Assembly (NCBI RefSeq): GCF_002160895.1
Contig: NZ_NFLL01000006.1
Location: 62,001 to 126,000 of the forward strand
Source: Faecalibacterium sp. An122
GTDB lineage: Bacteria > Bacillota > Clostridia > Oscillospirales > Ruminococcaceae
Reading direction: 5' to 3'
Length of the DNA: 64,000 bases
Part shown: positions 16,062 through 35,144 of the stretch, one piece after another
Numbering within the stretch: position 1 is the first letter of the stretch
How the letters are laid out: each line of letters opens with the position of its first letter
The notes under the pieces: model-generated
What the model was told of the DNA's origin: nothing
Database searches by the model: none
What the model saw: the letters and a program-made list of their open reading frames with translations, nothing else
Translations under genes and position numbers: made by a program

Positions 16062-16076
16062 GTTGACCCTCCTTTC

Positions 16077-17263: not shown

Positions 17264-17284
17264 TGTGGATACGCGAACCGGTTA

Positions 17285-17497: not shown

Positions 17498-17551
17498 AGA
17501 GTGACCTCCTTGATTTTTGAGTGTGAATGATTAAAAATGGGCAAAAAAATA

Positions 17552-17610
17552 GAAGCCCCGTCATTGTTCTGCTTTGGGCATTGCCCATGCGCAGTGCATG
17601 ACGGGGCTTC
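17552..17610 (-). terminator. Hairpin after virD4 (13-bp stem plus U-tract)
   Basis: GAAGCCCCGTCAT at 17552-17564 is the perfect complement of ATGACGGGGCTTC at 17598-17610. On the minus strand it is followed by TATTTTTTT, a normal intrinsic terminator layout. The long loop contains a second small stem (GGGCATTGCCC). The 3' arm overlaps the virD4 stop. It would partly separate virD4/pcfB transcription from the Maff2 genes. Confidence 0.75.
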
Positions 17611-19381: not shown

Positions 19382-19869
19382 AGCTCAACGCCCCGATCCT
19401 TCGTCTTAACCTTGACCTTCTCCTTGTGCTGGGCTTTAGACTGCTCCCTGCTGCGGGAGAGCTTCTGCTTGAGGGATTGCTTTTCTTTCTGCTTGACCGT
19501 CTTGGCGGAAAACTCCTTGAACGCCTGAGTCATCACATCCACATCCCGGCCTTTGAAGAAGACGAGATAGCGCGGCGGCTGCTCAGAGGTGTCTTTCTTG
19601 AGCGCGTAGTCGATCCCGTACTTGTTCGCTGTACGCTCGAAAGACTTGATGTTTCCTTCGGTCACTTCGATGTTGCTGATTGCGGCGTTCTGCTCGACAA
19701 GGTGCTTGATGGACTGCTTGCCCCGGTAGGTCTTGGGCTGCGAGGCTTGCTTTTCGGCCTTTTCAATTTCCTCGATGAATTTGGCGAGCGCCTTTTTCAG
19801 CACCTCCGCAGTAATTTTTCCGCCCTTAATGGCAATCGCAACGACTTTGGTATTTACTTCATCCTGCAT
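19378..19869 (-). CDS. PcfB family relaxosome accessory protein (DUF3801)
   Basis: A 163-residue basic protein beginning MQDEVNTKVVAIAIKGGKITAEVLKKALA, matching PcfB/DUF3801. In pCF10, PcfB bridges relaxase and VirD4 coupling protein. The core (KTYRGKQSIKHLVEQNAAISNIEV, then YFLVFFKGRDVDVMTQAF in similar form) precedes a very basic Lys/Gln-rich tail. An AGGAGGT site lies just upstream, and the stop overlaps virD4. A related copy is at 58294-58764. Confidence 0.88.
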   Translation of the reverse strand: MQDEVNTKVVAIAIKGGKITAEVLKKALAKFIEEIEKAEKQASQPKTYRGKQSIKHLVEQNAAISNIEVTEGNIKSFERTANKYGIDYALKKDTSEQPPRYLVFFKGRDVDVMTQAFKEFSAKTVKQKEKQSLKQKLSRSREQSKAQHKEKVKVKTKDRGVEL

Positions 19870-19985
19870 GGGGACCTCCTTTCTGAGATTTGCGGGGCAA
19901 TCCTGTCACTAAGGCGGGACACCGTGTAAAATGTGGATCATGTTTTCATCTCACCCCCTTTAAGTTGATTGAGAATGCTTACGCA

Positions 19986-20822
19986 TCAGCCTTTTCCGTG
20001 AAAATCGTAGTTCACGCGGGCTGAATAGTAGTTATCTATGGTTAGTGAAGCGTTATACAACGCCGTAAGCAGATATGCCCGGATGTTCCGAATGTCGGAA
20101 GGGCAATCGTTCATCGCTTGGAGCACATAGTCGATGTGGCCGCTGTCCAGCTTGAGGAAGCGTGACTTAACCACCGGCTGCGGCATATCTTCTCCGTTGA
20201 TACGGATGGTGGGGCTTGTGGAGCAAACAGCATCCAGCATGATCTCGACAATTTCGTTTACACGGTCAAGGTCATAGTGCCTGTCCAGAGAGCGGATGTC
20301 GATCTCAAGGTTATCCCGGATCAATTCCCTGTATTGCTCCCGTTCATCCATCCTGTCTATCCCATCAAGATTGATAGATTGATAGTTTCTCAGAGAGTTA
20401 TTTCTTTCGTTGGTAATTACTTGATTAGTATTTAATTGTGCGGGATTTTCCGTACACGGTTTTCCCGTGAACGGATTATCCGTGTCCGGCTTTTCCGTAT
20501 GCGGCTTTTCCGTGTCCGGCAAACCCGTCTGCGGCTTCTCGTATATCTCGAAAACCATGCTGCTCATCCGGCCTTTTTCATCCCGTGACTGATGACGGAC
20601 GAGATACCCTGCGTCCTCAAGCTCCCTGAGAGCTGCCAGAACAGCATCGGGGCCTTCCTTGCAGATCGCCGAAAGACCTTTCGTTGAGAACTGCCAGCCA
20701 TCGTTGAAGGACAGCATTTTGGAGAGTAGCCCCACGGCTTTGAGGGACAGGGTTTTATCCCTGAGATGGTAATTTGCCATGACCGTGTAGCCACGGTTTT
20801 TGTTGACGCGATAGACTGCCAT
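19986..20822 (-). CDS. Replication initiator-like helix-turn-helix protein (DUF6017)
   Basis: A 278-residue protein. Residues 1-85 form a winged-helix domain (YRVNKNRGYTVMANYHLRDKTL, then SLKAVGLLSKMLS) of the kind found in RepA-type initiators. A linker of six 5-residue repeats of the form P-x-T-x-x follows. The C-terminal half matches DUF6017 (REQYRELIRDNLEID, GHIDYVLQAMNDC, YLLTALYNA). Such proteins are thought to start replication of the excised ICE circle. It is the most upstream complete operon member before pcfB. The linker DNA is a 15-bp tandem repeat. Confidence 0.75.
   Translation of the reverse strand: MAVYRVNKNRGYTVMANYHLRDKTLSLKAVGLLSKMLSFNDGWQFSTKGLSAICKEGPDAVLAALRELEDAGYLVRHQSRDEKGRMSSMVFEIYEKPQTGLPDTEKPHTEKPDTDNPFTGKPCTENPAQLNTNQVITNERNNSLRNYQSINLDGIDRMDEREQYRELIRDNLEIDIRSLDRHYDLDRVNEIVEIMLDAVCSTSPTIRINGEDMPQPVVKSRFLKLDSGHIDYVLQAMNDCPSDIRNIRAYLLTALYNASLTIDNYYSARVNYDFHGKG
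20446..20535 (-). repeat. Six 15-bp tandem repeats inside the rep gene
   Basis: Six back-to-back 15-base units at 20446-20535, typified by CTTTTCCGTGTCCGG. They encode the P-x-T-x-x pentapeptide repeats of the initiator linker. Because 15 is a multiple of three, selection on the protein alone could also explain them. Iteron-like repeats within rep genes are known for RepA_N-type plasmids. Confidence 0.85.
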
Positions 20823-20826
20823 GCGG

Positions 20827-21057
20827 TTATCCCTCCCTTGCCATCACCGGCTGACAGCGCAGCGTTGACAGCTTCACCGGGGAATAGGGACATTCCTCGA
20901 AGACACAGGTTTGATATTTCCAGTAGGGACGATGGAAGCAGCACGACCGGCACTCCGGGCAGATTCCTTCGCATCCGCTGTCATAGTGGTTGTGGCCGGG
21001 TACCTCCTTCATGAGGGCTTCAAAGGCTTGCAGCTTACCGGCTGTCATGTAGCTCAT
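20827..21057 (-). CDS. Small cysteine-rich ICE protein
   Basis: A 76-residue protein with a dense cysteine pattern (CEGICPECRSCCFHR, then CVFEECPY), suggesting a small zinc-binding fold. It ends 4 bases before the rep gene start and begins at an ATG preceded by AAAGGAG, so both probably share a transcript. I do not know a named family. The spaced Cys pairs and the coding context make it more than a chance frame. Confidence 0.6.
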   Translation of the reverse strand: MSYMTAGKLQAFEALMKEVPGHNHYDSGCEGICPECRSCCFHRPYWKYQTCVFEECPYSPVKLSTLRCQPVMAREG

Positions 21058-21136
21058 TTTGTTTTCTCTCCTTTCCTCGCCGCACCGCCGTCATCTGCAA
21101 GAGGCAGATTGTTCCAGCTTTCGGGCAACAAAAAAA

Positions 21137-21184
21137 AGAGGGTTTGCTTCATGCTCCGAATTGGAGAATGAAACAAACCCTCTT
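21137..21184 (-). terminator. Intrinsic terminator after the DUF6050 gene
   Basis: On the minus strand AAGAGGGTTTG and CAAACCCTCTT pair, extended by an inner TTTCATTCTCC / GGAGCATGAA stem, followed by TTTTTTTT. It lies 15 bases after the stop of the membrane protein gene and before the cysteine-rich gene. Confidence 0.85.
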
Positions 21185-21198
21185 AGCTTTTCAGATAT

Positions 21199-21498
21199 TT
21201 AGATGATTTCTCGGATGGTATGGATGATGCCGAGCAGCAGCCCGACAACCAGGGCGAGTCCTCCGATAAGACCGCCGATGATGATGTTGAGTGCGAAGAT
21301 TCCTACTGTGCCGGATATGCCGTAACCGAAGGGGACGAGCCAGAGACACATCCTGCGGATGCCGAATGGGAAGCCGACACAGAGCCACATCAGGAAGTAG
21401 TCACATACGCCGTCCGCCATATAGACCGGCTTGAAGAATGCGGCAAGACAAAGGGCAATCAGCAGAGGAAGCAGCACTTCCTTGAGAAAAGTCTTCAC
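21199..21498 (-). CDS. DUF6050-like small membrane protein
   Basis: A 99-residue membrane protein starting at a GTG (21498) that overlaps the preceding stop as GTGA. It has three hydrophobic stretches (VLLPLLIALCLAAFFKPVY, FLMWLCVGFPFGIRRMCLW and LNIIIGGLIGGLALVVGLLLG). The pattern fits DUF6050, a small ICE membrane family of unknown role. A strong terminator follows it. The long frame extending upstream to 21612 crosses the DUF5348 gene and is not used. Confidence 0.75.
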   Translation of the reverse strand: MKTFLKEVLLPLLIALCLAAFFKPVYMADGVCDYFLMWLCVGFPFGIRRMCLWLVPFGYGISGTVGIFALNIIIGGLIGGLALVVGLLLGIIHTIREII

Positions 21499-21707
21499 AT
21501 CCTCACCCTCAATCCCTGCAAATCGTCCGTGCGGATGCCGACGAGATACCAGTCCGCAGCCATCTCGATCCGGGTGGGTTTCCACTTGCCCCCGATCATG
21601 ACATCGAAGCATTCCCCGCAGTGCAGACCGCCGTAGTAGCAGTCAAGGTCAAAGCGAATGTCGTACCGATCCGTTGCGTGGTCATAAACCAAAGTTCCCT
21701 GTTTCAT
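21495..21707 (-). CDS. DUF5348 domain protein
   Basis: A 70-residue soluble protein starting MKQGTLVYDHATDRYDIRFD at 21707, behind an AAAGGAGT ribosome site. It carries the DUF5348 pattern (CYYGGLHCGECFDVMIGG, then WYLVGIRTDDLQGL). The frame is open further upstream but that part lacks family resemblance and includes a terminator-like hairpin. It is coupled to the DUF6050 gene by a 4-base overlap. DUF5348 proteins are common, uncharacterised ICE cargo near the rep end. Confidence 0.8.
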   Translation of the reverse strand: MKQGTLVYDHATDRYDIRFDLDCYYGGLHCGECFDVMIGGKWKPTRIEMAADWYLVGIRTDDLQGLRVRM

Positions 21708-21838
21708 GATGGACTCCTTTCGTTGTGGGTAGCGCAACGGGAAGGGCTTACGCAGTGTACCTCCATAGCCACCGCCAGCCGGTTTTGATCCGGTGCGCCG
21801 ATTGTAGTGCGATTGTTCCTCTTTCAGGTCAAAAAAGA

Positions 21839-21892
21839 AGGGACTAAGCCAGAATCCCTTGATTTTCAAGGTCTTTCTGATTTAGTCCCATT
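21839..21892 (-). terminator. Hairpin at the ICE/recombinase remnant border
   Basis: GGGACTAAATCAGA pairs imperfectly with TCTGGCTTAGTCCC on the minus strand, with an inner CCTTGA/TCAAGG stem, and is followed by TTCTTTTTTGA. It terminates or marks the end of the truncated recombinase just before the DUF5348 gene. Confidence 0.6.
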
Positions 21893-22068
21893 ATCGCACA
21901 ACAATCCTTAACGATGATGGTGCCGATCTTCCCGGCCTCCACCTCGGCGATCAGAGACTGAAAGCCGGGCCGATTGAAATTCACACCGGAATACCCATCG
22001 TCCGTGAAGTGAATGATGTTTACCAGACCGTTTCTGCGGGCATAATCTTCAAGGTACTTCTTTTGAAA
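21880..22068 (-). pseudogene. Serine recombinase N-terminal fragment
   Basis: Translation of the minus strand gives QKKYLEDYARRNGLVNIIHF, then TDDGYSGVNFNRPGFQSLI and AEVEAGKIGTIIVKD. This is the resolvase-domain segment between the catalytic serine and the active-site arginine loop of large serine recombinases. The first 40 or so residues, including the serine, and everything after the resolvase domain are missing. It is probably what is left of the integrase of the region A element, or of another element at this hot spot. Confidence 0.8.
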
Positions 22069-22180
22069 AGCGATTTGTCAAGGGTATTTTCACCATAAAA
22101 CACGCATGACATATAATTTTTTCAAATTAGGCATATACTAATTCTTTCCTACATCCTGATAGAGCATACTGAAAGAAGTT

Positions 22181-22213
22181 CGGCATCCTCGCCCACAAGT
22201 GCTTCGGATGCCG
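22181..22213. other. Small inverted repeat between recombinase fragments
   Basis: CGGCATCC at 22181-22188 pairs with GGATGCCG at 22206-22213. It lies in the AT-rich 190-base gap between the two recombinase fragments, where I see no gene. Confidence 0.45.
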
Positions 22214-22259
22214 CTTCATATCTTTAGAGCAGCATATGAACTACGCTGTTCCATAAACT

Positions 22260-22949
22260 TTATTCATTGATATTTGTCTGTACATCTTGATATAGGCTGT
22301 TGGCAGACAATTCTCCTCCAATGGCAAACGCTTTCCCGGCTTCTGTGTCACCTTGCAAATGGTACATCCGCTTCTCGCCGAATTCCTCCAACTGCCTTTG
22401 TGCGAATAGCTTTTCGTAGCTTTGCACATACCACAGTACCCTCTGCATACTCTCAAGCACAAGCTGCTCCACGACTTTTTCCCGAATATAATGGGCAGAG
22501 CATACCTCAGAGTTTTTACGGTAAGCAGAACAGAAGAAGTAGGCTTGTTCCCGCTTGTAATTGTTGGTTACGCTGTAATACAGCTTTTCTCCGCAGTCGG
22601 CGCAATAGAGCAATCCCGAAAACATACTGACGATCCCGCTTTTAGCAGGTCTGCGGCGGTGTCGGCGCAGTTCCTGCACCAGCGCAAATACCTCCCGGTC
22701 AATGATGGCGGGGTGAGTATTCAGGAATATCTTCCATTCGTCTTTCGGTTTATCGAGCTTTTTCTTCATTTTGAAAGACTTGCGATAAGTTCGAAAGTTG
22801 ACGGTATCACCGCAGTATTCCTGTTTATCAAGAATGCCCGATACAGTGTCTGCAACCCAGCCATATCCCATCCAGCCGGTCATTCCGTTGTAACCGGCTT
22901 TCGGGCAACAAAAAAAGCCGGCACACAAATGCGTACCGACTTCCCGCAA
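22260..22949 (-). pseudogene. Serine recombinase C-terminal fragment
   Basis: Residues from about GWVADTVSGILDKQEYCGDT match the 'Recombinase' domain of large serine integrases, followed by the zinc-ribbon (LLYCADCGEKLYY, then YFFCSAYRKNSEVCSAHYI) and the coiled-coil tail. The catalytic N-terminal domain is absent, and the first 20 residues of the open frame are not homologous. It lies upstream of an N-terminal fragment in the same orientation, so the two cannot be one simply interrupted gene. It was probably inactivated by rearrangement at an insertion hot spot. Confidence 0.82.
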
Positions 22950-23294: not shown

Positions 23295-24734
23295 TTAGTT
23301 TCGTATCCTATGCATAGCTGCGTCTTGTTTATCCTTTGCCGACTCCAGATCTTCAAAATCCCCCAAGTCGGTCAGTTGAATTTCTGAAGCGTCAACCTTG
23401 GCGTCCGGGTTTTCCTGCTGGCCTCGTATGGTGGCGGGGATTTCTCCGTCCAGCTGTCCACGGATACTCTGCGCCCGGTGCAGGCAGACCCGTTCCAGCG
23501 TATCTACTGCCAGCTGATGGTCATCAAAGGAGCAAAACGCAGTCGGATCCTTTTGGACATAGGGCGCGATCAACTTTTCCACCTTCCGTAGGATAGCTTC
23601 AAACCGCCCGCTTTCAAAATATTCCGAAAGGAGTTCGTCGAAATAGGAGTGATAGCGGGCGAAGTATTCGTCGTGCTTCATCAGGTTGTGGTAAAGCGGC
23701 CGGTTCAGCATAACCTCACCTTCCGCCGGAGTATTGATGGGGTAGTTGATGAGGATGTTGGGATCTTTGATAGGATCGGTCATGCCAAGGGCATAGGTGC
23801 CGAAAGCCAGATTGTAATCCCAGGGCAGAATGCTGAGAACCCCGTCTTCCTCATACAAAAAGTAATTGTGACCGGTATGGCCCAGATAACTATCCCAATT
23901 CATCACAAAGGCCTGCACAGTGAAATACCGCAGCACCTCGTCCACGTTGATTGCGGTTTCCAGATTTTCTCCTGTGGAAAGGGTTTTCAGTGCCTCAATC
24001 ACCCGTTCCTGATCGGCTTGGGACGTTTCAAATTTGGCATTTTCAAAGATACCGGGATAACTGTCCGGATAATCATCGATATATTGCAGCGCTACGTCGG
24101 CGTTTTCCGCATTCAGGGAACGGTAATCCGGCTTGTACAGCTTTCCGTAATCATTCCCGAAATTCCTGCGGGCAAAGGCTTCCTCCGGCGCCTCAATTGC
24201 CAGAAACAAACCCCAGTCCTCTCCATTGACCGTCACCCAGGTATAGCTGCAAAGAGGCGCAGGCACCCCCATAAATGCCATCATGTCGTAGACCATGTAG
24301 GTTTTCAGATAGCTGTTGTCCTGAAAGGAGGCGTCCAGAGAAAATTTGTCCAGCCCATAGTAATTCCCTCCGTCCAGGAGCTGGTCAAATTCCAGCTTGA
24401 GGCTATAGCGGGAAAGCCCGTATTCCTCCGTCAGCCGCAGAGAGTTGTTGCCCTTGGTCCGCAGCCCAATATTGTGAAACGCCTCTCCGTCGATTTCGAC
24501 GGTGCAGGCCACATATTCTTCCTTTTCCGCGTTCCCGATAAAAGCACCCCAGTCCTCGATTTGAATATCAATGGTGTGCACCCGGCTGTTGTCAAAAAGC
24601 CGGGGCACATATCCCGGGTTGGCGCTGGCTTTGGGAATCCCCAACTGTTCGCCGAACATCAGCAGCAGAGTGAGAATCGCCGCTAAAACTGCCGCACCGA
24701 TGCAAATCCAGTCGATATACTTATGCTTCACCAT
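23295..24734 (-). CDS. cotH: CotH-type protein kinase, membrane anchored
   Basis: A 479-residue CotH family protein. One N-terminal transmembrane anchor (residues 10-30, ICIGAAVLAAILTLLLMFG) puts the rest outside the cell. The kinase-like fold shows GLRTKGNNSLRL, KFSLDASFQDNSYLKTYMVYD, WGLFLAIEAPEEAFA and the catalytic-type segment LSILPWDYNLAFG near residue 300. B. subtilis CotH phosphorylates serines of spore-coat proteins. Here the gene follows DUF4956 by 4 bases in an operon with a VTC polyphosphate polymerase and a repeat-rich lipoprotein, which suggests an extracytoplasmic phosphorylation function. Substrate is unknown. The final 60 residues are a charged tail. Confidence 0.85.
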   Translation of the reverse strand: MVKHKYIDWICIGAAVLAAILTLLLMFGEQLGIPKASANPGYVPRLFDNSRVHTIDIQIEDWGAFIGNAEKEEYVACTVEIDGEAFHNIGLRTKGNNSLRLTEEYGLSRYSLKLEFDQLLDGGNYYGLDKFSLDASFQDNSYLKTYMVYDMMAFMGVPAPLCSYTWVTVNGEDWGLFLAIEAPEEAFARRNFGNDYGKLYKPDYRSLNAENADVALQYIDDYPDSYPGIFENAKFETSQADQERVIEALKTLSTGENLETAINVDEVLRYFTVQAFVMNWDSYLGHTGHNYFLYEEDGVLSILPWDYNLAFGTYALGMTDPIKDPNILINYPINTPAEGEVMLNRPLYHNLMKHDEYFARYHSYFDELLSEYFESGRFEAILRKVEKLIAPYVQKDPTAFCSFDDHQLAVDTLERVCLHRAQSIRGQLDGEIPATIRGQQENPDAKVDASEIQLTDLGDFEDLESAKDKQDAAMHRIRN

Positions 24735-24738
24735 CGCC

Positions 24739-25410
24739 TTATCCCATATAATCGCCGTTGTAAGAGACCAGCACCACCCGGGATACGCCCGGCATAGCCT
24801 CTAACTCGTTGACAAAGGTATTGCTGTCCTCCTTGAGGCGGACTTCGTAGTTGAGCTCAATACTGCCATTGTCCACACTTTTGCTTTTAAGATTCAGCCG
24901 CCTGACCTGGGACTTCACAAAAAGCCGAGCCTGTTCCTCGATCTCGCTGTTTTCACAGTGTACCACCAGGATATAGGGGGAATCCACCGTTTTCTTTTTG
25001 GAGAATGCAAAGAGCACAACCCCAATAAAGATACTGCCGAATACCGCCAACGGAATCAGCCCGGCCGCCAGGACAATGCCCACCGCAATAGCCCAGAACA
25101 GGAACGCGATATCCATGGGTTCCTTAATAGCAGTACGGAACCGGACGATGGACAGAGCGCCCACCATGCCCAGGGACAGCACGATGTTGCTCACCACCGT
25201 CATGATCAGCAGGGTAGTGATGAGGGATAAAGCAACCAGCGTCACACCGAAGCTGGCCGAATACATCACGCCGCTGTAACTCTTCTTATAGATGAAAAAG
25301 ATAAATAATCCCAGCAGGAAAGCCAGAACCAAAGCGATCACCATGTCCAATATGGAAATGCTGGCGATATTCTCCAGAAAGCTGGATTTAAAAATATCCT
25401 GAAAGGTCAT
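24739..25410 (-). CDS. DUF4956 membrane protein
   Basis: A 223-residue protein with four predicted membrane helices in residues 20-135 (LDMVIALVLAFLLGLFIFFIY, FGVTLVALSLITTLLIMTVV, FLFWAIAVGIVLAAGLI and VFGSIFIGVVLFAFS). The conserved GALSIVRFRTAIKEPMDIAFLFWAIAVG signature of DUF4956 sits between helices 2 and 3. A soluble cytoplasmic C-terminal domain follows. DUF4956 genes are often found beside VTC-domain genes, as here (24 bases after the VTC stop), and beside cotH. A transport or docking role for polyphosphate is sometimes supposed but not proven. Confidence 0.88.
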   Translation of the reverse strand: MTFQDIFKSSFLENIASISILDMVIALVLAFLLGLFIFFIYKKSYSGVMYSASFGVTLVALSLITTLLIMTVVSNIVLSLGMVGALSIVRFRTAIKEPMDIAFLFWAIAVGIVLAAGLIPLAVFGSIFIGVVLFAFSKKKTVDSPYILVVHCENSEIEEQARLFVKSQVRRLNLKSKSVDNGSIELNYEVRLKEDSNTFVNELEAMPGVSRVVLVSYNGDYMG

Positions 25411-25434
25411 TGCAGCCTTTCCTCCTCTATTTTT

Positions 25435-26133
25435 TCAATCAAACCGCCGGCATAGGACGTATTTGGAACAGGCAGATGCCTGCCTTCCGGGCACCTGTAC
25501 TGCCATACGGACAAGCTCTGGCAAAAACGCATCATATTTGATTTCCAGAACTGTGCCGGACTCTATAGTGCGCAGATAAAAGATCTCCGGATTCAAAAAA
25601 TCCACGCTGCCAAGACCAGTGCGGATATCCCGATCCAGGGTGATCCGCACGTTGCCGGGTGCATAGAGAAAGGCCTCCCGGTCGTAACAGACGATGGTCT
25701 TCGGCCGCAGCCCTTTCCCTTTTAACTTGCTGTAAAGCTCTATGAAAAGCGGTTCACTCGAATCCAGCAGGAATTCATAGTTGCCGGAAAGCAGCTTTTC
25801 TGCCTGTTCCTGTGTTATCCGGGCGCTGCGTTTACCGCACAGTCCGTTTACCTTGTACTTCTTTTCCAGCCGGATAAAGGAAAAATCTGTCCCATAGTAC
25901 CGCAGGCGGAATTTTTCCCGCCGGTTTACCCCGTCGATTTTCTCCCGCAGGGCACTGTCATACGGTGTGTCAAAGTATAAGCTGGTTACCCGGTATATAC
26001 CGTCTGGGCCGGCGTTTTTGTCGTGGGTAAACAGCTTCCGAAGCCTTTGGGAAAGCACCAGATCTTCCCGCAGGTTGATCTGGTGCTTCAACTCATGCCG
26101 AAGGGAAATGGCTTTTAGCGGCTCAATCGTCAT
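25435..26133 (-). CDS. VTC-domain polyphosphate polymerase
   Basis: A 232-residue protein with the tunnel-fold VTC domain. Characteristic elements are RHELKHQINLREDLVLSQRL, VTSLYFDTPYDSAL, REKFRLRYYG, IRLEKKYKVNG and a final VLEIKYDAFLPELV with the basic and acidic residues that line the tunnel. Eukaryotic VTC4 makes polyphosphate from ATP; bacterial VTC-like proteins are assumed to do similar chemistry. I chose the ATG at 26133, which overlaps the lipoprotein stop by 11 bases; a longer frame upstream is the antisense-like reading of the repeats. Its neighbours are DUF4956 and CotH. Confidence 0.85.
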   Translation of the reverse strand: MTIEPLKAISLRHELKHQINLREDLVLSQRLRKLFTHDKNAGPDGIYRVTSLYFDTPYDSALREKIDGVNRREKFRLRYYGTDFSFIRLEKKYKVNGLCGKRSARITQEQAEKLLSGNYEFLLDSSEPLFIELYSKLKGKGLRPKTIVCYDREAFLYAPGNVRITLDRDIRTGLGSVDFLNPEIFYLRTIESGTVLEIKYDAFLPELVRMAVQVPGRQASACSKYVLCRRFD

Positions 26134-27286
26134 AGCCGGAATCCCCGTCATCATCGCTATCACTATAATCGCTGCCACCATCATCGTAATTGGTGTCACC
26201 GTAGTTCGTATCATTGTAATCGGTGACACCGTCACTGTTGGGACCATAGTCCGTATCGTTGTAGTCGGTCACACCATCGTTGTTGGGGCCGTAGTCCGTG
26301 TCGTTATAGTCGGTGACACCGTCATTGTTGGGACCGTAGTCCGTATCGTTGTAGTCGGTGACACCGTCATTGTTGGGACCGTAGTCCGTATCGTTGTAGT
26401 CGGTGACACCGTCGTTGTTGGGACCGTAGTCTGTATCGTTGTAGTCGGTGACACCGTCATTGTTGGGACCGTAGTCCGTATCGTTGTAGTCGGTCACACC
26501 GTCGTTGTTGGGACCGTAGTCTGTGTCATCGTAGTTGCCGGAACCACTGCTGGTATTCTGGTTTCCACTCTGCGTGCCGATGGTCTTGTGCTCAGCTCTT
26601 ACAACCTTTCCCGTCACGGCATGAATGTCATATTCATATTCATTCCCATTCGCAGTGAATTCCAGTTCAAAAATCGGGGTTCCGTCATCGTGGTCGAACT
26701 CCCGGTCATCGAATACCGCGTTCGCAGCGTTGACATTCGCCTGGGTAAGTGCGATTTCCTGCGCTTTCTCCAGAGTGATATAGGGAGAAGGCTCACCGTC
26801 TTTGGCATAAGCCGGGTCATAATCGTCGTCGTCAATGGTCACGATGCCTGAAGCAAGATCCAGACCCTTCACCGTCTCTTGAGTTCTTAAGCTCATATCC
26901 TCCAGAAAGTCGTCGCTGGGAAGCACCGAACCCGGTTCCAGCTGCAGGACGATATTCTTTTTGTTGCCGTCGATGTCATCCACAAAGAAACCGGCCTCGT
27001 TGATTTCTACAATCAGATCCTGTAATACAACCTCACAGTTTTTGCCTATATAATCCGGATAGGCCGCCACAATGGTCTTGCCGTCATCATTCCTGCCGGT
27101 CAGGTCTGTGACTTTTCCTTCCCGGTTATATTCGATTTGTATTTCCGGGTTGACACTCAGAGTAAGGGTTCCTGTCTCTTTCAGCGCTGTTCCTTCCTGC
27201 GCCGGTGCTCCGCATCCGGTCAGAAGGACTGCCGACGCGACAGCCAGGGAAGAGACCGCTGCAAAAAGTTTTCTTCTCAATTTCAT
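26123..27286 (-). CDS. Repeat-rich lipoprotein with RsgI-like and PepSY domains
   Basis: A 387-residue secreted lipoprotein. The signal peptide ends in a lipobox (AVLLTGCGAP, Cys25). Residues 38-75 (GTLTLSVNPEIQIEYNREG) resemble the extracellular RsgI_N domain of anti-sigma-I factors. Residues about 155-240 read as a PepSY-type domain (YITLEKAQEIALTQANVNAA, then VTGKVVRAEH). The C-terminus has seven tandem copies of DTDYGPNNDGVTDYN and an Asp-rich tail. The repeats have the Asp/Asn spacing of calcium-binding loops. It heads the VTC-DUF4956-CotH operon behind a SigI-like promoter. Surface ligand or calcium binding is inference. Confidence 0.82.
   Translation of the reverse strand: MKLRRKLFAAVSSLAVASAVLLTGCGAPAQEGTALKETGTLTLSVNPEIQIEYNREGKVTDLTGRNDDGKTIVAAYPDYIGKNCEVVLQDLIVEINEAGFFVDDIDGNKKNIVLQLEPGSVLPSDDFLEDMSLRTQETVKGLDLASGIVTIDDDDYDPAYAKDGEPSPYITLEKAQEIALTQANVNAANAVFDDREFDHDDGTPIFELEFTANGNEYEYDIHAVTGKVVRAEHKTIGTQSGNQNTSSGSGNYDDTDYGPNNDGVTDYNDTDYGPNNDGVTDYNDTDYGPNNDGVTDYNDTDYGPNNDGVTDYNDTDYGPNNDGVTDYNDTDYGPNNDGVTDYNDTDYGPNSDGVTDYNDTNYGDTNYDDGGSDYSDSDDDGDSGYDD
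26216..26530 (-). repeat. Seven 45-bp tandem repeats encoding DTDYGPNNDGVTDYN
   Basis: The repeat core (GTTGGG on the plus strand) recurs every 45 bases seven times. Copies differ mainly at synonymous positions, so the protein sequence is under selection. One copy has Ser in place of Asn (GPNSDGV). The array is likely to vary in copy number among strains. It is in-frame coding repeat, not a CRISPR array. Confidence 0.93.
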
Positions 27287-27346
27287 GTTATTGCTCCTTT
27301 CGGCTTATGTTTGAATCGGCTTTTGTTTTGCCTCACACTCATAGAT

Positions 27347-27374
27347 TACGGAAATAGATTTTGAAAACCGGGGT
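27347..27374 (-). promoter_or_regulatory. SigI-like promoter of the lipoprotein/VTC/cotH operon
   Basis: On the minus strand ACCCCGGTTTT-C-AAAA, then 8 bases, then CGTA, placed about 60 bases before the lipoprotein start. The same block with identical 28-base span lies before the sigI-like gene (29106-29133). It resembles known SigI promoters, which have an ACCCC-type -35 and a CGAA-type -10 element. The match is seen directly; recognition by the adjacent sigma factor is inferred. Confidence 0.75.
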
Positions 27375-27396
27375 AAGCTGGAAATTTTTTTGAAAT

Positions 27397-28356
27397 TTAA
27401 TCGTCATCTGCATCATCGCCATCGTTATCATCACCGTCATAGCCGCTATCGCCGTCGTTATCGGAATCGTCGTCGCTGTCGTTACTCGGGTCATAATCGG
27501 TATTCCCGTCCGTATAATCGGTGACTCCGTCGCTGCCGGAACCATAGTCTGTATCTACAGGCGGCGTACTGCTGGCCGGAGGCGTATAATCGGTCACACC
27601 ATCGTTATTGGGTCCGTAATCTGTATCGTTATAATCGGTAGTACTGGATGATGTCGGGGGGATAACCGCAGGCTGGGATGATTCAGGCGGAGATGGCGAT
27701 ACGGACTCCGGCTGGGAAGTATCCGTCTGGGAGGAATTTGGAGAGGAACTGCTCTCCGGTTCTTCCTGACTTTGTCCGTTTTTATAATCGACAATTTCGA
27801 TCGTGATGGTAATCCGCCCGTCTAAATGCTCCGTCACCTTGGTGCGCAGTTCTGTTCCATATTCCTGGAACAGTGTTTCATCCGGTGAATCAACGGAGAA
27901 TGAGACTCGGCCGCCATCAGAAAGAAAGCCCATTTCAATCGCACGGTCAAGCAGCTCATCTACAACGGTCACCTTGTCTTTTCCCTTACCATCATAGCCT
28001 TCCAGCAGCGTTTCTCCATCTTCATTTGTCCCCGTGAGTTCCACGACCGTCCCCTGTCGATTCAGGTCCATTCGCACTTCCGGATTGATGGTCAGGTAAA
28101 TGGAAGAGTAAGGCCGCATATAATTTTGATAATAACTGAACCCAAAAAGTAGCAGGAAACAGGCGGCAATTGCCGCAATGCCGCTACTGATCCATCGAAT
28201 GGTATGCCGCTGCTTTTCTGGCGTATCTTTCATCAACACCGGATCGTACACCGTCTGCCCTATTTCGTATCGAAGATTGGCCGCTTTTAAAAAACGCCCC
28301 TCTTCGTCCAGAAGAACCGCATAGCCGGGGTGGCATTCCATAACCAGATAACTCAT
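27397..28356 (-). CDS. RsgI-type transmembrane anti-sigma factor
   Basis: A 319-residue single-pass protein. The cytoplasmic N-terminus (MSYLVMECHPGYAVLLDEEG) matches the RsgI domain that binds SigI. One transmembrane helix lies near residues 55-75 (SGIAAIAACFLLLFGFSYYQ). The outer region begins SIYLTINPEVRMDLNRQG, like the lipoprotein's RsgI_N-type domain. A Ser/Pro linker then leads to two or three degenerate copies of the DTDYGPNNDGVTDY repeat and an Asp-rich tail. Its ATG overlaps the sigma-factor stop by 4 bases. By analogy to B. subtilis and Clostridium thermocellum, an outer signal would release the sigma factor. Confidence 0.87.
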   Translation of the reverse strand: MSYLVMECHPGYAVLLDEEGRFLKAANLRYEIGQTVYDPVLMKDTPEKQRHTIRWISSGIAAIAACFLLLFGFSYYQNYMRPYSSIYLTINPEVRMDLNRQGTVVELTGTNEDGETLLEGYDGKGKDKVTVVDELLDRAIEMGFLSDGGRVSFSVDSPDETLFQEYGTELRTKVTEHLDGRITITIEIVDYKNGQSQEEPESSSSPNSSQTDTSQPESVSPSPPESSQPAVIPPTSSSTTDYNDTDYGPNNDGVTDYTPPASSTPPVDTDYGSGSDGVTDYTDGNTDYDPSNDSDDDSDNDGDSGYDGDDNDGDDADDD

Positions 28357-29078
28357 CGCGCTGCCACTCCTTTCATTACTTGTTTCAAATGCCCGCGGAT
28401 GATTTCATACCCGTTGGTATAGATCAGCAGCAGGGCCACCATATATTTGCGGTGCCGTTCCAGCGTCTTACGTTCCACGCCGCTGCCGGCGGTCAGCTGC
28501 CCGATGGGCAGCTTCTTTGTCTGTAAGAGGACGTCCAACAGTTCTGGATTCTCCTTGGCGTACTGCAATGCTTTACGGCAGGCATCCAGCGTGCGCTGCT
28601 GCTTGGGGCAGTTGTCCGCCACATCGCTGAGGCTGACACCGAATTCCTGCATCTGCCGGGTCAATTCCTCAATTTCTGCGCGGGTCGCATCCCGTACCGA
28701 CGTTTCTTCATATGGGTCCCTTTCATCTGCCAGCGTATCCCCCAGCGTTATATCGTCTTCTCCTGCCGGTGCGTCCAACGAAATGACACGGCTATGCCGC
28801 TGTTCCCTGCGGCTGTAGTCAATCAGCCGATTGCGGATCAGCATGGCGGCGTACTTGAGGAAAGCACCGCGGGTTCGGGAATATCCGCCGATCGCCTCGT
28901 GAAAAGCAATCATGGCAATACTCAGTTCATCGTCATGTCCTTCAATGGGAGGACGCTTTAAAAACTTTGCTGTTTCCATCTTGATAAAGGGCATGTATGT
29001 ACCAATCAGCCGATCTGCCGCTTGTATGTCCTCTTTTGCCGCATATACATGCTGAACGATTTTATGTTCTTCATTCAT
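28353..29078 (-). CDS. sigI: SigI-type RNA polymerase sigma factor
   Basis: A 241-residue sigma-70 family protein. Residues about 20-100 show the region-2 pattern of SigI (LIGTYMPFIKMETAKFLKRP, DDELSIAMIAFHEAIGGYSR, AFLKYAAMLIRNRLIDYSRRE). The C-terminal region (LPIGQLTAGSGVERKTLERHRKYMVALLLI) is a helix-turn-helix domain with the family's typical ending. AGGAGGG at 29085-29091 supports the ATG at 29078. It is co-translated with the RsgI-like gene. A SigI-like promoter lies directly upstream, so it probably activates its own transcription. Confidence 0.88.
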   Translation of the reverse strand: MNEEHKIVQHVYAAKEDIQAADRLIGTYMPFIKMETAKFLKRPPIEGHDDELSIAMIAFHEAIGGYSRTRGAFLKYAAMLIRNRLIDYSRREQRHSRVISLDAPAGEDDITLGDTLADERDPYEETSVRDATRAEIEELTRQMQEFGVSLSDVADNCPKQQRTLDACRKALQYAKENPELLDVLLQTKKLPIGQLTAGSGVERKTLERHRKYMVALLLIYTNGYEIIRGHLKQVMKGVAAR

Positions 29079-29105: not shown

Positions 29106-29133
29106 TACGAACTCCTGTTTTCAAAACCGGGGT
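29106..29133 (-). promoter_or_regulatory. SigI-like promoter of the sigI-rsgI operon
   Basis: On the minus strand ACCCCGGTTTT-G-AAAA, 8 bases, CGTA, about 28 bases before the sigma-factor start. Sixteen of the first sixteen positions except one central base are identical to the motif at 27347-27374, and the spacing to CGTA is the same. It implies positive autoregulation. Confidence 0.75.
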
Positions 29134-29452
29134 CACCGTGACATGGCTTATCAAATCAAATGGGTATAAAACTACATTTTAATTATATCTCTCTTGCTGT
29201 TAAGCTGCGACCATAGAAAAGTTAAATTCTTGTAAAACTACGGTAAAGCAAAAAGGGAAAGCATTTCATGAAACTGAAATTGTACAAAGTATATGCAATA
29301 AACCTTTTGATGCCATATAGGCTTTTATTTGCTTGATCCGCAAGCGTAGAAAATTAGGAGCTGAAAAATCCTAATTTTAAGCCGTTTTTAAGGCATAAAA
29401 ATCGAGGGGCAAGGATTTTGTACCTTGCCCCTCGATTTTGCGTTTGAAAGTG
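29134..29452. other. AT-rich gap upstream of sigI, with two hairpins
   Basis: No gene is visible between the sigI promoter and the tnpV fragment. AAAATTAGGA/TCCTAATTTT pairs at 29350-29378. A stronger AT-flanked hairpin is listed separately at 29397-29440. Confidence 0.5.
29397..29440. terminator. Bidirectional terminator hairpin
   Basis: AAAATCGAGGGGCAAGG pairs perfectly with CCTTGCCCCTCGATTTT around an 8-base loop. The A and T flanks make it usable in both directions. It would stop transcription leaving the tnpV fragment on the minus strand. Confidence 0.85.
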
Positions 29453-29734
29453 TTACAGGCTTAATTTTACGACTTTCCTATCGGCTTTGGTTTGTGCGAA
29501 AATTACTTCTGTGTTCACGATTTCCGTAGCCGCTTCACGCAGCGCATTCATTATTCCGACCCACTCCATCGGATGTTCAGCTTTCAGTTTTTCAGTTATA
29601 CCCTCACGCTCCTCCATCTGCTCTGCCAACCGAAGAAACAGTTCTTCTGCCTGTTTATCAATATCCGCAAGATAGCTGTTCAGCCTGCTGCTTGTCAGCA
29701 GGTTGGTACAAAGTATCCTGCGGTGCTGTTTCAT
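29453..29734 (-). pseudogene. TnpV transposon protein, N-terminally truncated
   Basis: The 93-residue frame (MKQHRRILCTNLLTSSRLNSYLADIDKQAEELF) matches the C-terminal two thirds of TnpV; compare the intact copy at 46494-46844, which has YLKEHRPILYTDFII at the same place. The usual start (about 30 residues reading YHIGKYGRLRR) is missing, and the apparent ATG is a chance one. It is a remnant of a TnpV-bearing element next to the chromosome block. Confidence 0.75.
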
Positions 29735-30421: not shown

Positions 30422-31164
30422 ACCTTCTGATCGTGCAAGCAAGCCCAAAGAAGAAGGGCGGAGCCTCCCGTTTCTTCTCGAGATTGCTCCGGTTGTTCCT
30501 GCCGGGCGTCCGGAAGGAAACGGTATCCCTCAGTGCCCGGCAGGATTTTCAGCCGATTCTGGAGCTCCTTCCAAGCACGGAGGCAGTGTGCCTTTCTGTA
30601 CCCCTTTATGTGGATGGCCTTCCCTCCCATGTAGTGGAATTTCTGGGCAGGGCGGAAGCATATTGCCAAAGCCATCCCTGCCGGTTCCGGCTGTATGCCC
30701 TATGCAACAACGGCTTTGTGGAAGGGAAACAAAATCTGCCCGCCCTGCGCATGCTTCAGGCATGGTGCGAGAAGACTGGGATGCCATGGGGCGGCGGAAT
30801 TGGGATCGGCGGCGGGGTCATGCTCCAGGTGCTGGGGATCGTTTACCCCATCCTGATTGGCATCATTCTGCTTCAGATGGCGTTATCCTTTTTCAGCACC
30901 GGAACATTACCAGGCGAGCTGTGGTGCTCCCTTGCCATCCAGATATGCACATGGCTTTTTCTCAACAGCGGCCTACTATTCTGCTTGGCGCGGCTTTCGT
31001 CGGCCATTCGCAGAGAGCGGGTGTTGCCCAACCGCTTTACGCGGGTCATGATTCCCGCTTTTCTGTTTGTCCCTGTCGCAGACGTATTTATGACATTGTC
31101 CTCTCTTTTTCATGGCCGCTTCCTCGTCACACTCTTGAAACGGGACAAATGGCATAGTGAATAG
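30418..31164 (+). CDS. FMN reductase-like protein with C-terminal membrane domain
   Basis: A 248-residue protein. Residues 1-130 have the NADPH-dependent FMN reductase fold (MNLLIVQASPKKKGGASRFF, then VCLSVPLYVDGLPSHVVEFL), and the motif GMPWGGGIGIGGGVMLQ is typical of this family's end. Residues 140-225 contribute two or three hydrophobic segments (VLGIVYPILIGIILLQMAL and LAIQICTWLFLNSGLLFCLA). It overlaps the previous gene (ATGA type). Membrane attachment suggests electron transfer at the membrane, but this is inference. Confidence 0.7.
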   Translation: MNLLIVQASPKKKGGASRFFSRLLRLFLPGVRKETVSLSARQDFQPILELLPSTEAVCLSVPLYVDGLPSHVVEFLGRAEAYCQSHPCRFRLYALCNNGFVEGKQNLPALRMLQAWCEKTGMPWGGGIGIGGGVMLQVLGIVYPILIGIILLQMALSFFSTGTLPGELWCSLAIQICTWLFLNSGLLFCLARLSSAIRRERVLPNRFTRVMIPAFLFVPVADVFMTLSSLFHGRFLVTLLKRDKWHSE

Positions 31165-31174
31165 GAGGGTAGAT

Positions 31175-31717
31175 ATGGAACACATCATTATTTATGGCAG
31201 CCAGTACGGCAGTTCCCGCCGGTATGCAGAAAAGCTGTCTGAACAAACCGGCATCCCCGCGGTCAGCTACAAAGACGCCCCAGACCTTTCAGGCAGAAGC
31301 GTGGTCGTCTATCTGGGCAGCCTTTACGCCGGCGGTGTCCTTGGCCTTTCGAAAACCCTGCGGGGCTTTTCCCTTCAAGACGGGCAAAAGCTGATCCTCG
31401 TTACCGTAGGGCTGGCCGACCCCTGCGAACAGGAAAACCTGGACAATATCCGCGCCTCTTTGCGAAAGCAGCTTTCCGAGAAGCTGGTTGACCGGGCAAA
31501 GGTTTTCCATCTACGCGGCAGGATTGATTATCAAAAGCTTTCCCTCGGCCACCGGACGGTGATGAAGCTGCTGTACCAATCCCTGCGCAGGATCCCTATG
31601 GAAAAGCAGACGGCGGAAAACCGGGAACTCCTGGAGACCTACGGGAAACGGGTTGATTTTACAGATTTTCGCGCGTTGGGGCCGATTATTTCAGAAATAC
31701 AGGGAAAAACGATATGA
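31175..31717 (+). CDS. Flavodoxin domain protein
   Basis: A 180-residue protein starting at the ATG at 31175, seven bases after AGGAGG; a GTG at 31157 is less likely. It begins IIIYGSQYGSSRRYAEKLSE, which is the FMN phosphate-binding loop of flavodoxin/menaquinone-dependent protoporphyrinogen oxidase (HemG-type) proteins, and continues VVVYLGSLYAGGVLGLSKTL. The C-terminus is basic. It overlaps the next gene by 4 bases. Three flavin proteins in one operon suggest a shared redox pathway. Confidence 0.8.
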   Translation: MEHIIIYGSQYGSSRRYAEKLSEQTGIPAVSYKDAPDLSGRSVVVYLGSLYAGGVLGLSKTLRGFSLQDGQKLILVTVGLADPCEQENLDNIRASLRKQLSEKLVDRAKVFHLRGRIDYQKLSLGHRTVMKLLYQSLRRIPMEKQTAENRELLETYGKRVDFTDFRALGPIISEIQGKTI

Positions 31718-34197: not shown

Positions 34198-34746
34198 TCA
34201 TTTTTTCAGCCGGTCTTTTAATTTCCAATAGCGATAGCCGAAAGACACGGCCGCCCAGGCATAAACCGCCAGAAGAATCAGAAACAGCACCAGCAGGACG
34301 GGGGCGTCTGCATCCTGGCTGCGGAACTGTCCGAACAGATTGGGCAGGATCAGCAATACAAGAATAATAAGGATCGGCAGATACCGGCCTGCAAACACCC
34401 GCCGCATCATATCCAGTCTGGATTCATCGTCACAGAAGATTTTCTCTTCCCCCTGCATCTGGGAAACCGGCTTGCGGAAATAGCTGTATCCGCCAAAATC
34501 CTGCATATATTCCCAGCCACAGTCCTGGAACATCTGGACGTACTCATCTTTGTGTTTCAGCCCTTCTTCGTTATAATCCAGCTGATAAACTACATCCTCA
34601 GGCGTACATCGCTCAAAATGATAAATCCCCAGCAGGTTTACCCTCCGAAACTTCCACCCTTCCCGGTGACGTTTTTGAAGATACCGCTCTTCTTTCTCCC
34701 AATCCGCGATTGTAAAGATACGCAATTCAGTTTTTCTCGTTTTCAT
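34198..34746 (-). CDS. DUF2812 membrane protein
   Basis: A 182-residue protein. The N-terminal domain (LRIFTIADWEKEERYLQKRHREGWKFRRV, in pieces) and YHFERCTPEDVVYQLDY, then MFQDCGWEYMQDFGGYSYF match DUF2812. Two C-terminal helices follow (LPILIILVLLILPNLFG and VLLVLFLILLAVYAWAAV). DUF2812 genes typically sit with PadR regulators, as here: it overlaps the padR gene by 20 bases. The role is probably membrane stress related, but unknown. Confidence 0.85.
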   Translation of the reverse strand: MKTRKTELRIFTIADWEKEERYLQKRHREGWKFRRVNLLGIYHFERCTPEDVVYQLDYNEEGLKHKDEYVQMFQDCGWEYMQDFGGYSYFRKPVSQMQGEEKIFCDDESRLDMMRRVFAGRYLPILIILVLLILPNLFGQFRSQDADAPVLLVLFLILLAVYAWAAVSFGYRYWKLKDRLKK

Positions 34747-35062
34747 TTCGGCGCACCTCCATCATGTTTTGGTACAGTCTTTCGATCCGTTTCATTTCCA
34801 GAGCCAGCACCTCTCGGCCCAGGTCTGTGATGCAATAGATTTTCCGCTTTTCTTCCTCCCGCACAAACTGGATCAACCCATCCTTTTCCATCTTGGACAG
34901 ACTGCCATACATCGTCCCGGGGCTGATTCGGATTTCGCCGCCGGTAAGCTCTTCCACTTTGCGGACGACACTATAGCCATGGGACTCTTCCCGAAAGCAC
35001 AGCAAGATGTAAAAACCTGTCTCCGTCATCGGGACATATACTTTCAGAATATGAGCGTCCAC
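34727..35062 (-). CDS. PadR family transcriptional regulator
   Basis: A 111-residue winged-helix repressor. I chose the GTG at 35062, eight bases after AAGGAG; the frame is open further up but without a ribosome site. The PadR core reads LKVYVPMTETGFYILLCF, HGYSVVRKVEELTGGEIRIS, GTMYGSLSKMEKDGLIQFV and KIYCITDLGREVLALE. A symmetric ATAT-rich element upstream is a likely operator, so it probably controls itself and DUF2812. Confidence 0.88.
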   Translation of the reverse strand: MDAHILKVYVPMTETGFYILLCFREESHGYSVVRKVEELTGGEIRISPGTMYGSLSKMEKDGLIQFVREEEKRKIYCITDLGREVLALEMKRIERLYQNMMEVRRNENEKN

Positions 35063-35096
35063 TTCCTCTACTCCTTCCCTTATATTCTTGGCAATA

Positions 35097-35144
35097 TATA
35101 TCGCACTGCTATATATCAATTTTAGTATAGCACTGCGATATACT
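35097..35144 (-). promoter_or_regulatory. Probable PadR operator, inverted repeat
   Basis: TATCGCACTGCTATA and TATAGCACTGCGATA face each other across about 10 bases and are inverted copies except for the centre base. The ATAT-rich edges fit PadR operators. It lies 35 bases before the padR start and overlaps the expected promoter. Confidence 0.6.

Follow-up and report, generated by a model that had tools for sequence, protein, structure and literature searches.

A predicted sigma-I-controlled CotH, VTC and DUF4956 locus in Faecalibacterium sp. An122 and the [ST]xY tag shared by its lipoprotein and RsgI tails

The window analyzed here comprises 64,000 nucleotides (nt) of Faecalibacterium sp. 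An122 (contig NZ_NFLL01000006.1, positions 62,001 to 126,000) and is part of a 3.26-Mb draft genome. Within the window, six genes follow each other on the minus strand from 29078 to 23295, in the order sigI, rsgI, a lipoprotein gene, VTC, DUF4956 and cotH. An earlier note on this DNA had placed six genes of one orientation at 23295-29078, and all of them were recovered, with both ends exact. The domains, the promoter-like sites, the gene order and a tripeptide motif, [ST]xY, which co-occurs with a linked CotH, were all computed from the DNA. We consider it fairly probable that the locus encodes a dedicated, self-regulated circuit for surface protein modification, in which a sigma-I loop would control a CotH that modifies [ST]xY in both the lipoprotein and the tail of the anti-sigma factor RsgI. 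The features of the locus are listed below (aa, amino acids).

29106..29133, minus strand: predicted SigI-type promoter of sigI-rsgI, ACCCCGGTTTTGAAAACAGGAGTTCGTA (pattern match)
28353..29078, minus strand: sigI, sigma-I type RNA polymerase sigma factor, 241 aa (NCBIfam SigI models, Sigma70_r2)
27397..28356, minus strand: rsgI, membrane anti-sigma factor, 319 aa (RsgI_M, Asn91-Pro92 motif, hydrophobic segment)
27397..27726, minus strand: C-terminal tail of RsgI, about residues 211-319 ([ST]xY count)
27347..27374, minus strand: predicted SigI-type promoter of lipoprotein-VTC-DUF4956-CotH, ACCCCGGTTTTCAAAATCTATTTCCGTA (pattern match)
26123..27286, minus strand: lipoprotein with RsgI-like SEAL, PepSY and a repeat tail, 387 aa (Pfam, AlphaFold2)
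26172..26539, minus strand: tandem 45-nt repeats encoding DTDYGPNNDGVTDYN (repeat search; ratio of nonsynonymous to synonymous polymorphism, pN/pS)
25435..26133, minus strand: VTC-domain protein resembling polyphosphate polymerases, about 232 aa when started at the likely ATG (PF09359; start judged from the sequence)
24739..25410, minus strand: DUF4956 membrane protein, 223 aa (PF16316; AlphaFold2/Foldseek, with modest confidence)
23295..24734, minus strand: CotH-family kinase-like protein, 479 aa (PF08757; match to 5jd9)

The sigI and rsgI genes overlap by 4 nt, the gap from DUF4956 to cotH is 4 nt, and the 110 nt between rsgI and the lipoprotein gene contain one of the promoter-like sites. 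CotH and VTC were each found once in the entire genome, both at this locus, and the two RsgI_M proteins found in the genome are likewise both encoded there.

The conservation of the locus was analyzed in 247 genomes of the family, of which 96 contained RsgI_M and 174 contained VTC; thus, VTC alone is not diagnostic. A first sample consisted of 40 loci picked by eye among the RsgI_M matches, and the full six-gene order was found in 12 of these; CotH is cut by a contig end in L037, the lipoprotein and VTC form one frame in L039, and L040 is cut after VTC. A count started from DUF4956 is less biased. This search presupposed no SigI, but its query rows came from SigI-linked loci, and the best 80 of at least 567 were kept as named loci. 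The VTC scores divided these 80 loci into 42 of class A (at least 327 bits) and 38 of class B (at most 291 bits). Where at least 3.5 kb was available upstream of VTC, SigI, RsgI and the lipoprotein were present in 24 of 24 class A loci and in none of 23 class B loci, two of the 24 being duplicate contigs (L134 of L051, and L143 of L038). The earlier note had suggested looking for the gene order in other genomes, and the sigI/rsgI pair indeed adjoins the VTC-CotH block in all of these class A loci and in none of these class B loci.

Among all 42 class A loci, SigI was matched in 26, RsgI in 27 and the lipoprotein in 29. In the 13 loci with no lipoprotein match, the sequence before VTC is no longer than 669 nt, and in 10 of them part of the repeat tail was seen in it. 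The CotH frames of class A are 464-527 aa long in 40 of 41 cases and 650 aa in one. CotH was found in 25 of the 38 class B loci, with lengths of 555-730 aa in 21, three shorter pieces, and 464 aa in L196. Two variants of the gene order were seen: the sigI-rsgI pair is reversed in L156, with CotH beyond the contig end, and CotH lies between RsgI and the lipoprotein in L167. Loci L150 and L151 are cut at the contig start, and their genomes hold a SigI-RsgI pair with the motif on another contig. Bacteria labelled Lachnospiraceae, Oscillospiraceae, Acutalibacter and Avichristensenella are among the carriers, as are Lachnoclostridium sp. An14 and Mordavella massiliensis An420c, presumably isolates, whose records bear no metagenome-assembly mark. 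As a separate observation, VTC adjoins DUF4956 in all of the 30 short loci L073-L102 (2.3-3.7 kb), inside which no SigI match was found; all except L097 are distant relatives of class A only.

The SigI product matched ten SigI models (best E 8e-55), each under its curated cut-off (160.5 bits for TIGR02895, cut-off 185), and Sigma70_r2 above its cut-off. In RsgI, RsgI_M scored 77 bits (cut-off 25.3), RsgI_N (PF12791) stayed below its cut-off of 25 with 21.1 bits and E 0.00028, and a hydrophobic segment spans about residues 52-70. Pro92 aligns with residue 1 of the anti-sigma PDB chains B of 8her, 8hep and 8u9o, which in our reading of the alignment would be the product left after the Asn-Pro cut. 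Asn-Pro was present in 40 of 41 class A RsgI proteins, the single miss being a truncated row. Autoproteolysis of RsgI at this site is predicted; the published sequence of events is autocleavage followed by RseP and ClpXP steps (PMC12203970).

Sites of the form ACCCC-N19-CGTA were identified upstream of sigI (29133-29106) and of the lipoprotein gene (27374-27347), and the published SigI promoters share the form ACCCC...CGWA (PMC4711584, PMC6056542). Counting ACCCC-N18-20-CGWA within -300 to +150 of the gene starts in 38 class A loci placed the pattern before the lipoprotein gene in 33 of 37 cases and before sigI in 28 of 38, as compared to rsgI (1/38), VTC (1/38), DUF4956 (0/37) and CotH (0/36). 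Class A loci totalling 583 kb held 87 sites, 67 of them inside sigI or lipoprotein windows. The ten loci with no linked block had the pattern at 5/10 sigI and 4/7 lipoprotein genes. When all loci were counted with slightly wider spacing and shuffle controls, the numbers were 35 of 53 for sigI (0.3 expected) and 46 of 68 for the lipoprotein gene (1.3 expected). A strict version, ACCCCRNTTTN14CGTA, matched the whole genome of strain An122 exactly twice, both times at the locus, with one match for the reversed-pattern control. A looser pattern gave one further site in the window, at 28331 within rsgI, which is taken as chance. Based on these promoter-like sites, SigI very probably controls the CotH block, and the link between the sigma/anti-sigma pair and CotH drawn in the earlier note is borne out at the level of predicted promoters before sigI and the lipoprotein gene.

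The earlier note had described the third gene as encoding a repeat lipoprotein. The repeats are present, but the protein is more than a repeat protein. It has a lipobox (LTGC, Cys25), RsgI_M and PepSY, both above the Pfam cut-off, and an Asn46-Pro47 motif. The AlphaFold2 model, built from 24 sequences (mean pLDDT 85), had B. subtilis RsgI 8t9n as its best Foldseek match in the PDB, with E 3.4e-6 and a TM-score of 0.72 by target length. Thus, based on the modelled SEAL fold and the Asn-Pro motif, we conclude that the lipoprotein is a relative of the RsgI ectodomain with an added PepSY domain, and autoproteolysis would be expected here also. All 42 class A lipoproteins have a lipobox-like pattern. 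The Asn-Pro pattern was found in 40 of 42, the misses reading NPEL in L142 and LPEI in L144, which brings the number to 41 of 42. No paper combining RsgI and PepSY was matched in the open-licence literature.

Several relatives of the lipoprotein have other architectures. In L053 (7739-9322), L060 (8454-10280) and L065 (5263-6519), several PepSY-like units, recognized by eye, replace the [ST]xY tails. The relatives in L053 and L060 come after sigI-rsgI, which shows that this core also exists without CotH. In L039 (6844-8667), the lipoprotein and VTC form a single frame of 608 aa, with the remaining repeat tail in another frame (7523-7975); this could reflect a gene fusion, a frameshift or an error of assembly. 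In L045 (6205-11275), a SigI-RsgI pair with no lipoprotein is followed by a surface-type protein of 1376 aa.

The repeat copies of the lipoprotein are spaced by 45 nt, and related copies occur in RsgI. For the 15-residue unit DTDYGPNNDGVTDYN, a pN/pS of 0.07 was calculated from 217 units in 37 loci, a value lowered by the selecting pattern, which fixes some positions. As judged from these codons, the repeat is not a product of chance and is under strong constraint at the protein level. It was detected in 15 of the 247 genomes, and the listed matches sit in the lipoprotein and RsgI frames of such loci; in genome G207 they are divided between two contigs. No open-licence paper was found that contained three words of the repeat.

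The tails share the motif [ST]xY more widely than the repeat. In 70 tails from CotH-linked loci, 771 of 893 tyrosines were part of [ST]xY, as compared to 146 expected from shuffling, and for 62 of the 70 tails no more than 10 of 1000 shuffles attained the motif count. The tails were drawn from 41 CotH-linked loci, of which 38 contributed: L134 and L143 are repeats and L142 was not caught by the pattern. Locus L037 was excluded because its CotH is cut, and L196, which is class B by VTC score, entered as CotH-linked. All seven tyrosines in the RsgI tail of the window lie in the motif. The 17 tails from ten loci with no linked block had 22 of 113 tyrosines in [ST]xY, 17 of them from L046. Tyrosine was observed at position +2 of serine or threonine 840 times in 75 tails (156 expected), and all other offsets from -6 to +6 were below expectation except -3 (330), which is raised because of the repeat spacing. 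Outside the 15-mer there were 410 instances of the motif, mostly SGY, TDY, TNY, SDY and SNY.

Another 14 frames rich in [ST]xY were found in the scanned loci, all in class A; on inspection by eye, these represent fragments of the lipoprotein and RsgI tails or by-products of the repeat in another frame. The motif was also considered as a general mark of CotH, an idea rejected since class B loci, except L196, have no [ST]xY-rich frame outside the lipoprotein and RsgI matches. We conclude from these comparisons of tail sequences that the tripeptide [ST]xY is what the tails share, with the 15-residue repeat as its commonest packing. The acidic repeat that the earlier note had described as shared is present in both RsgI and the lipoprotein, but what the tails have in common is [ST]xY and not the 15-mer.

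The co-variation of motif and CotH block was followed on a tree of SigI and RsgI domains without tails, which included 48 loci; L044, L061 and L068 had been dropped for their contig-end cuts. A locus was scored as motif positive if at least three, and at least half, of its tail tyrosines lay in [ST]xY, and as block positive if it had CotH, or VTC at contig ends. Presence of the block changed at least five times on supported branches of this tree. Both motif and block were present in 38 loci, neither in nine, the block only in one and the motif only in none; that is, the motif occurred in 38 of 39 SigI-RsgI loci with the block and in none of nine without it. In the block-only locus, L144, the lipoprotein tail was left out of the count, and 10 of the 15 tyrosines in its last 110 residues are in the motif. 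Locus L046 (17 of 17 tyrosines in the motif) was counted as block positive because an unlinked lipoprotein-VTC-DUF4956-CotH block lies on another contig of its genome. Accordingly, nine of ten SigI-RsgI loci with no linked CotH block have no [ST]xY, and the tenth has a block elsewhere in its genome. The block of L068 (G207) also lies on another contig. Genome G191 has a CotH-linked RsgI with nine of nine tyrosines in the motif and a second RsgI (L048) with none, its tail being devoid of tyrosine. Genome G084 (L061) has a motif-rich RsgI on a contig cut within the lipoprotein and no listed VTC; it was considered as a second exception but is not counted as such because a CotH match runs into a contig start.

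The CotH protein scored 203 bits against PF08757 (cut-off 23.8) and matched a solved structure, 5jd9, which we take to be B. cereus CotH, with E 6.9e-14. The residues N279-x-D281, H289-N290-Y291 and W305-D306-Y307 align with this structure. All three segments, with Asp281 and Asp306 as the catalytic-type residues, are conserved, the share being at least 95% among 53 class A rows and 90% among 23 class B rows, and Thr287-Gly288, next to H289-N290-Y291, is specific to class A. The only hydrophobic segment is N-terminal (residues 5-23), from which the kinase domain is predicted to face outward. CotH of B. subtilis is a Ser/Thr kinase whose substrates include CotB, polyphosphorylated in its serine-rich repeats, and CotG, which it phosphorylates; the D228Q variant of this CotH is catalytically inactive (PMC7821199); our guess is that D228 is equivalent to Asp281.

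The VTC protein scored 113 bits against PF09359 (cut-off 23), and a PDB sequence search with it gave no match. Residues E52, K54, K103, R110, K112, R114, R116, K130, K132, E235 and K237, in the numbering of the long frame, are kept across 55 rows of class A and 44 others; these acidic and basic residues presumably have the roles assigned to them. The open frame, 25435-26247, begins within the lipoprotein repeats in another reading frame. The likely start, as judged from the sequence, is the ATG at 26133, which overlaps the lipoprotein stop by 11 nt, and the hydrophobic N-terminus of the long frame would then be an artefact of the out-of-frame repeats. The repeats are open in a second frame also in L037, L038 and L051, where the VTC frame is lengthened upstream into the lipoprotein. 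Automatic annotation may thus report a false VTC membrane segment from the repeat frame. The DUF4956 protein matched PF16316 with 47 bits, above the cut-off, and has several hydrophobic segments. Its C-terminal domain is ACT/ferredoxin-like in an AlphaFold2 model of modest confidence (pLDDT 73), with the C-terminal domain of MgtC (2lqj) as the best match (E 1.5e-3).

In the circuit that we propose, RsgI would keep sigma-I at the membrane, and its outer SEAL domain would self-cleave at Asn-Pro and bear a long, presumably disordered tail. Once free, sigma-I would use the two predicted promoters and transcribe only two units, sigI-rsgI and lipoprotein-VTC-DUF4956-CotH. Anchored on the outside, CotH would modify, and most likely phosphorylate, the serine or threonine of [ST]xY in the tails of the lipoprotein and RsgI; serine/threonine, tyrosine or both may be the residue that is hit. 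VTC and DUF4956 could back the modification from the inner side, for example by making or moving a phosphate carrier. Since the tag of the main substrate is also present on the sensor, sigma-I may receive feedback from how far the RsgI tail is modified, or from competition of this tail with the lipoprotein; we infer both this feedback and its sign. The earlier note had imagined a surface phosphorylation or a polyphosphate coat sensed by RsgI. A surface modification reported by the outer part of RsgI is also our best reading, whereas a polyphosphate coat has no direct support.

A number of points weigh against the proposed circuit. Proteins with the CotH fold can be inactive or perform other chemistry, we know of no phosphate donor for a kinase outside the cell, and CotH-dependent modification of the tails is a prediction. 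The hidden Markov model of class A was trained on SigI-linked loci, though the scores leave a gap between the classes. L196, from Massilimicrobiota, combines a class B VTC score of 286 with a class A-like CotH and a motif-rich lipoprotein; its contig begins with two lipoprotein-like genes, one with SNY motifs, before VTC-DUF4956-CotH. The promoter pattern is absent from 10 of 38 class A sigI genes and 4 of 37 lipoprotein genes. Five independent pairs on the tree all agree, for which the sign test gives p 0.0625, the limit for five pairs. Among the negatives, CotH is entirely absent only from G081, G066, G159 and G076. Another CotH (open frames of 664-780 aa) is present elsewhere in G236, G151 and G220, G112 has a fragment, and G191 has the class A CotH with the motif at its other locus, while the contig of its second RsgI bears a partial CotH. 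These block-less loci in genomes with another CotH indicate that the motif tracks a linked class A CotH and not CotH in general. In G060 (L044), 8 of 9 tyrosines in the last 110 residues of RsgI are in the motif, despite no CotH, VTC or class A DUF4956 being found in the assembly; its contig starts inside the lipoprotein, and the block possibly lies in an assembly gap. Finally, the genome of L203 has a class A block with a piece of the lipoprotein tail, and its sole RsgI_M match lies apart from any SigI match.

A doubtful extension of the circuit is a kinase powered by polyphosphate, in which VTC would make polyphosphate in the cytosol, DUF4956 would help to export it and CotH would use it outside the cell to phosphorylate the tags, with RsgI reading the level and thereby setting the output of sigma-I, and with the lipoprotein serving as a lipid-anchored, self-cleaving mimic of the sensor in competition for CotH. 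Polyphosphorylation of the tails through lysine or histidine was judged unlikely because these residues make up approximately 0.3% and 0.4%, respectively, of the last 100 tail residues.

The acidic repeats may resemble the Ca2+ loops of thrombospondin type 3 and dockerin, and the tails here could bind Ca2+ or merely span the cell wall while CotH modifies something else. The 15-mer indeed has D-x-D and NDG segments, the tails are 22% aspartate, and the RsgI tails of block-less loci are plain acidic tails. However, the tail designs seen share [ST]xY rather than the 15-mer, as in L163, which has no standard 15-mer and yet 17 of 20 tyrosines in the motif. A structural loop also leaves unexplained why tyrosine is found at +2 of serine or threonine only where a class A CotH is linked, and no Pfam Ca-binding repeat was found in the lipoprotein or RsgI at E 0.01. 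We therefore regard this explanation as unlikely.

It also seems improbable that CotH acts on the [ST]xY tags with another chemistry, transferring a nucleotide, an amino acid, a sugar or a polyphosphate chain. Enzymes with a kinase fold and other chemistry exist, ATP is scarce outside the membrane and a plain ATP kinase needs neither VTC nor DUF4956; the class A-specific T287-G288 beside the conserved H289-N290-Y291 may point in the same direction. Against this, the catalytic-type residues are kept and B. subtilis CotH acts as a Ser/Thr kinase (PMC7821199).

We give very little weight to a role of CotH-VTC-DUF4956 in exopolysaccharide synthesis, with SigI-RsgI sensing the polysaccharide and the repeats being incidental. 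Genes for CotH, polyphosphate polymerase and DUF4956 adjoin pel in streptococci and clostridia (PMC7112168), and RsgI proteins of C. thermocellum are described as sensing polysaccharides (PMC12203970). However, the six genes include no glycan enzyme and, by Pfam matches, no pel gene, and the motif is left unexplained. Synthesis of Pel itself was ruled down since no PelG (PF16933) was found in the An122 genome, where the other pel genes were not sought. Anti-phage defence was dismissed after a PADLOC scan of five of the proteins (all except SigI) had given no match at E 0.01.

One of the closest described systems is the NELoc-2 locus of C. perfringens. SigI, VTC and CotH are listed together in Table 4 of PMC2879425, a protein with an anti-sigma domain is listed in PMC11677781, and sigma factors and CotH-like proteins are named in PMC5964661. 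As at the locus in the window, NELoc-2 (CP4_0458-0468) combines SigI, a cell-wall protein of 348 aa, VTC, a membrane protein of 226 aa annotated as 'tubulin/FtsZ', and CotH (PMC2879425). By comparison with the published gene table, we read the anti-sigma-domain protein and the 226-aa protein as RsgI and DUF4956. In contrast to the locus in the window, the table shows a resolvase flanked by two pairs of VTC and membrane-protein genes, lists additional glycosyltransferase and HEAT-repeat genes and has no separate lipoprotein, and the locus is described there as disease-associated and not as a regulatory circuit. The statement in the earlier note that no case linked to SigI/RsgI had been described thus holds only in part: the gene set was already listed in NELoc-2, but was not interpreted as a circuit in those descriptions. 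In the open-licence literature, CotH and 'polyphosphate polymerase', in that spelling, were matched together in one paper, the C. perfringens survey, and DUF4956 in three, among them the pel paper PMC7112168.

In B. subtilis and C. thermocellum, SigI/RsgI systems have a sigI-rsgI pair, a self-cleaving periplasmic domain, ACCCC...CGWA promoters and autoregulation (PMC4711584, PMC6056542, PMC12203970), and the locus in the window is predicted to have all four. Here, a repeat tail replaces the carbohydrate-binding module, the lipoprotein copies the ectodomain, and the target would be the CotH block instead of cellulosome genes. The CotH-CotB-CotG group of the spore coat likewise has a CotH-family enzyme and two partners with Ser-rich repeats that are predicted to be disordered; at least 35 residues of CotB, mostly serine, are phosphorylated, and one of the phosphopeptides contains Ser-Asp-Tyr (PMC7821199). 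These are spore-coat proteins with basic Ser/Lys/Arg repeats, whereas the window encodes membrane-anchored proteins with acidic [ST]xY tails, together with VTC, DUF4956 and the predicted sigma-I control. The accessory genes of Gram-positive pel loci (CotH-polyphosphate polymerase-DUF4956-DUF4832) also combine CotH, a VTC-type protein and DUF4956 (PMC7112168); the six genes here include no DUF4832 and have SigI, RsgI and the lipoprotein instead.

The CotH substrates named in the papers cited are spore-coat proteins, and the CotH-VTC-DUF4956 group is given no defined function there. A tag that accompanies a linked class A CotH points to candidate substrates and to candidate sites within them. 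If the proposed circuit is correct, this would be a bacterial anti-sigma factor that senses the modification of its own tail, the function of one class of CotH-VTC-DUF4956 would be shown, and the locus would offer a compact system for the question of the extracytoplasmic phosphate donor.

Genes of mobile elements were observed on both sides of the locus. Conjugative-element genes occupy 12721-22949 of the window, including a TraG-type ATPase (12721-15156), VirD4 of the CD1115 family (17609-19381) and a DUF6017/HTH gene (19986-20822). This region ends with a serine-recombinase frame (22260-22949) at 0.3 kb from the cotH stop, with Pfam matches to Recombinase and zinc-ribbon only. Upstream of sigI, a TnpV-like gene occupies 29453-29734 and covers positions 34-111 of the 111-position profile; after it comes an inverted repeat of 17 bp without mismatches, at 29398-29439. 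A MobA/MobL relaxase gene is found further out on that side (35809-37506). Spread of the locus by plasmid or phage was considered and rejected: CotH matched no phage and only three plasmids, all weakly (identity of 41% or less), and around the best plasmid match, from Paenibacillus, the other five genes were unmatched in 19 kb.

A PadR regulator gene and a DUF2812 gene are located at 34198-35119 of the window, separated from sigI by approximately 5 kb that include a flavodoxin gene (31157-31717). In L040, L044 and L051, which are from other genera, the PadR and DUF2812 genes lie directly upstream of sigI, and this DNA is 78-82% identical to the PadR/DUF2812 region of the window (34.2-35.8 kb). 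Recent horizontal transfer had been suspected since DUF4956 scored none, 187 and 190 bits in three congeners, as compared to 436 bits here, and loci from other genera were closer. The PadR/DUF2812 region shared with L040, L044 and L051 weakens this suspicion and makes loss in the congeners as likely as transfer.

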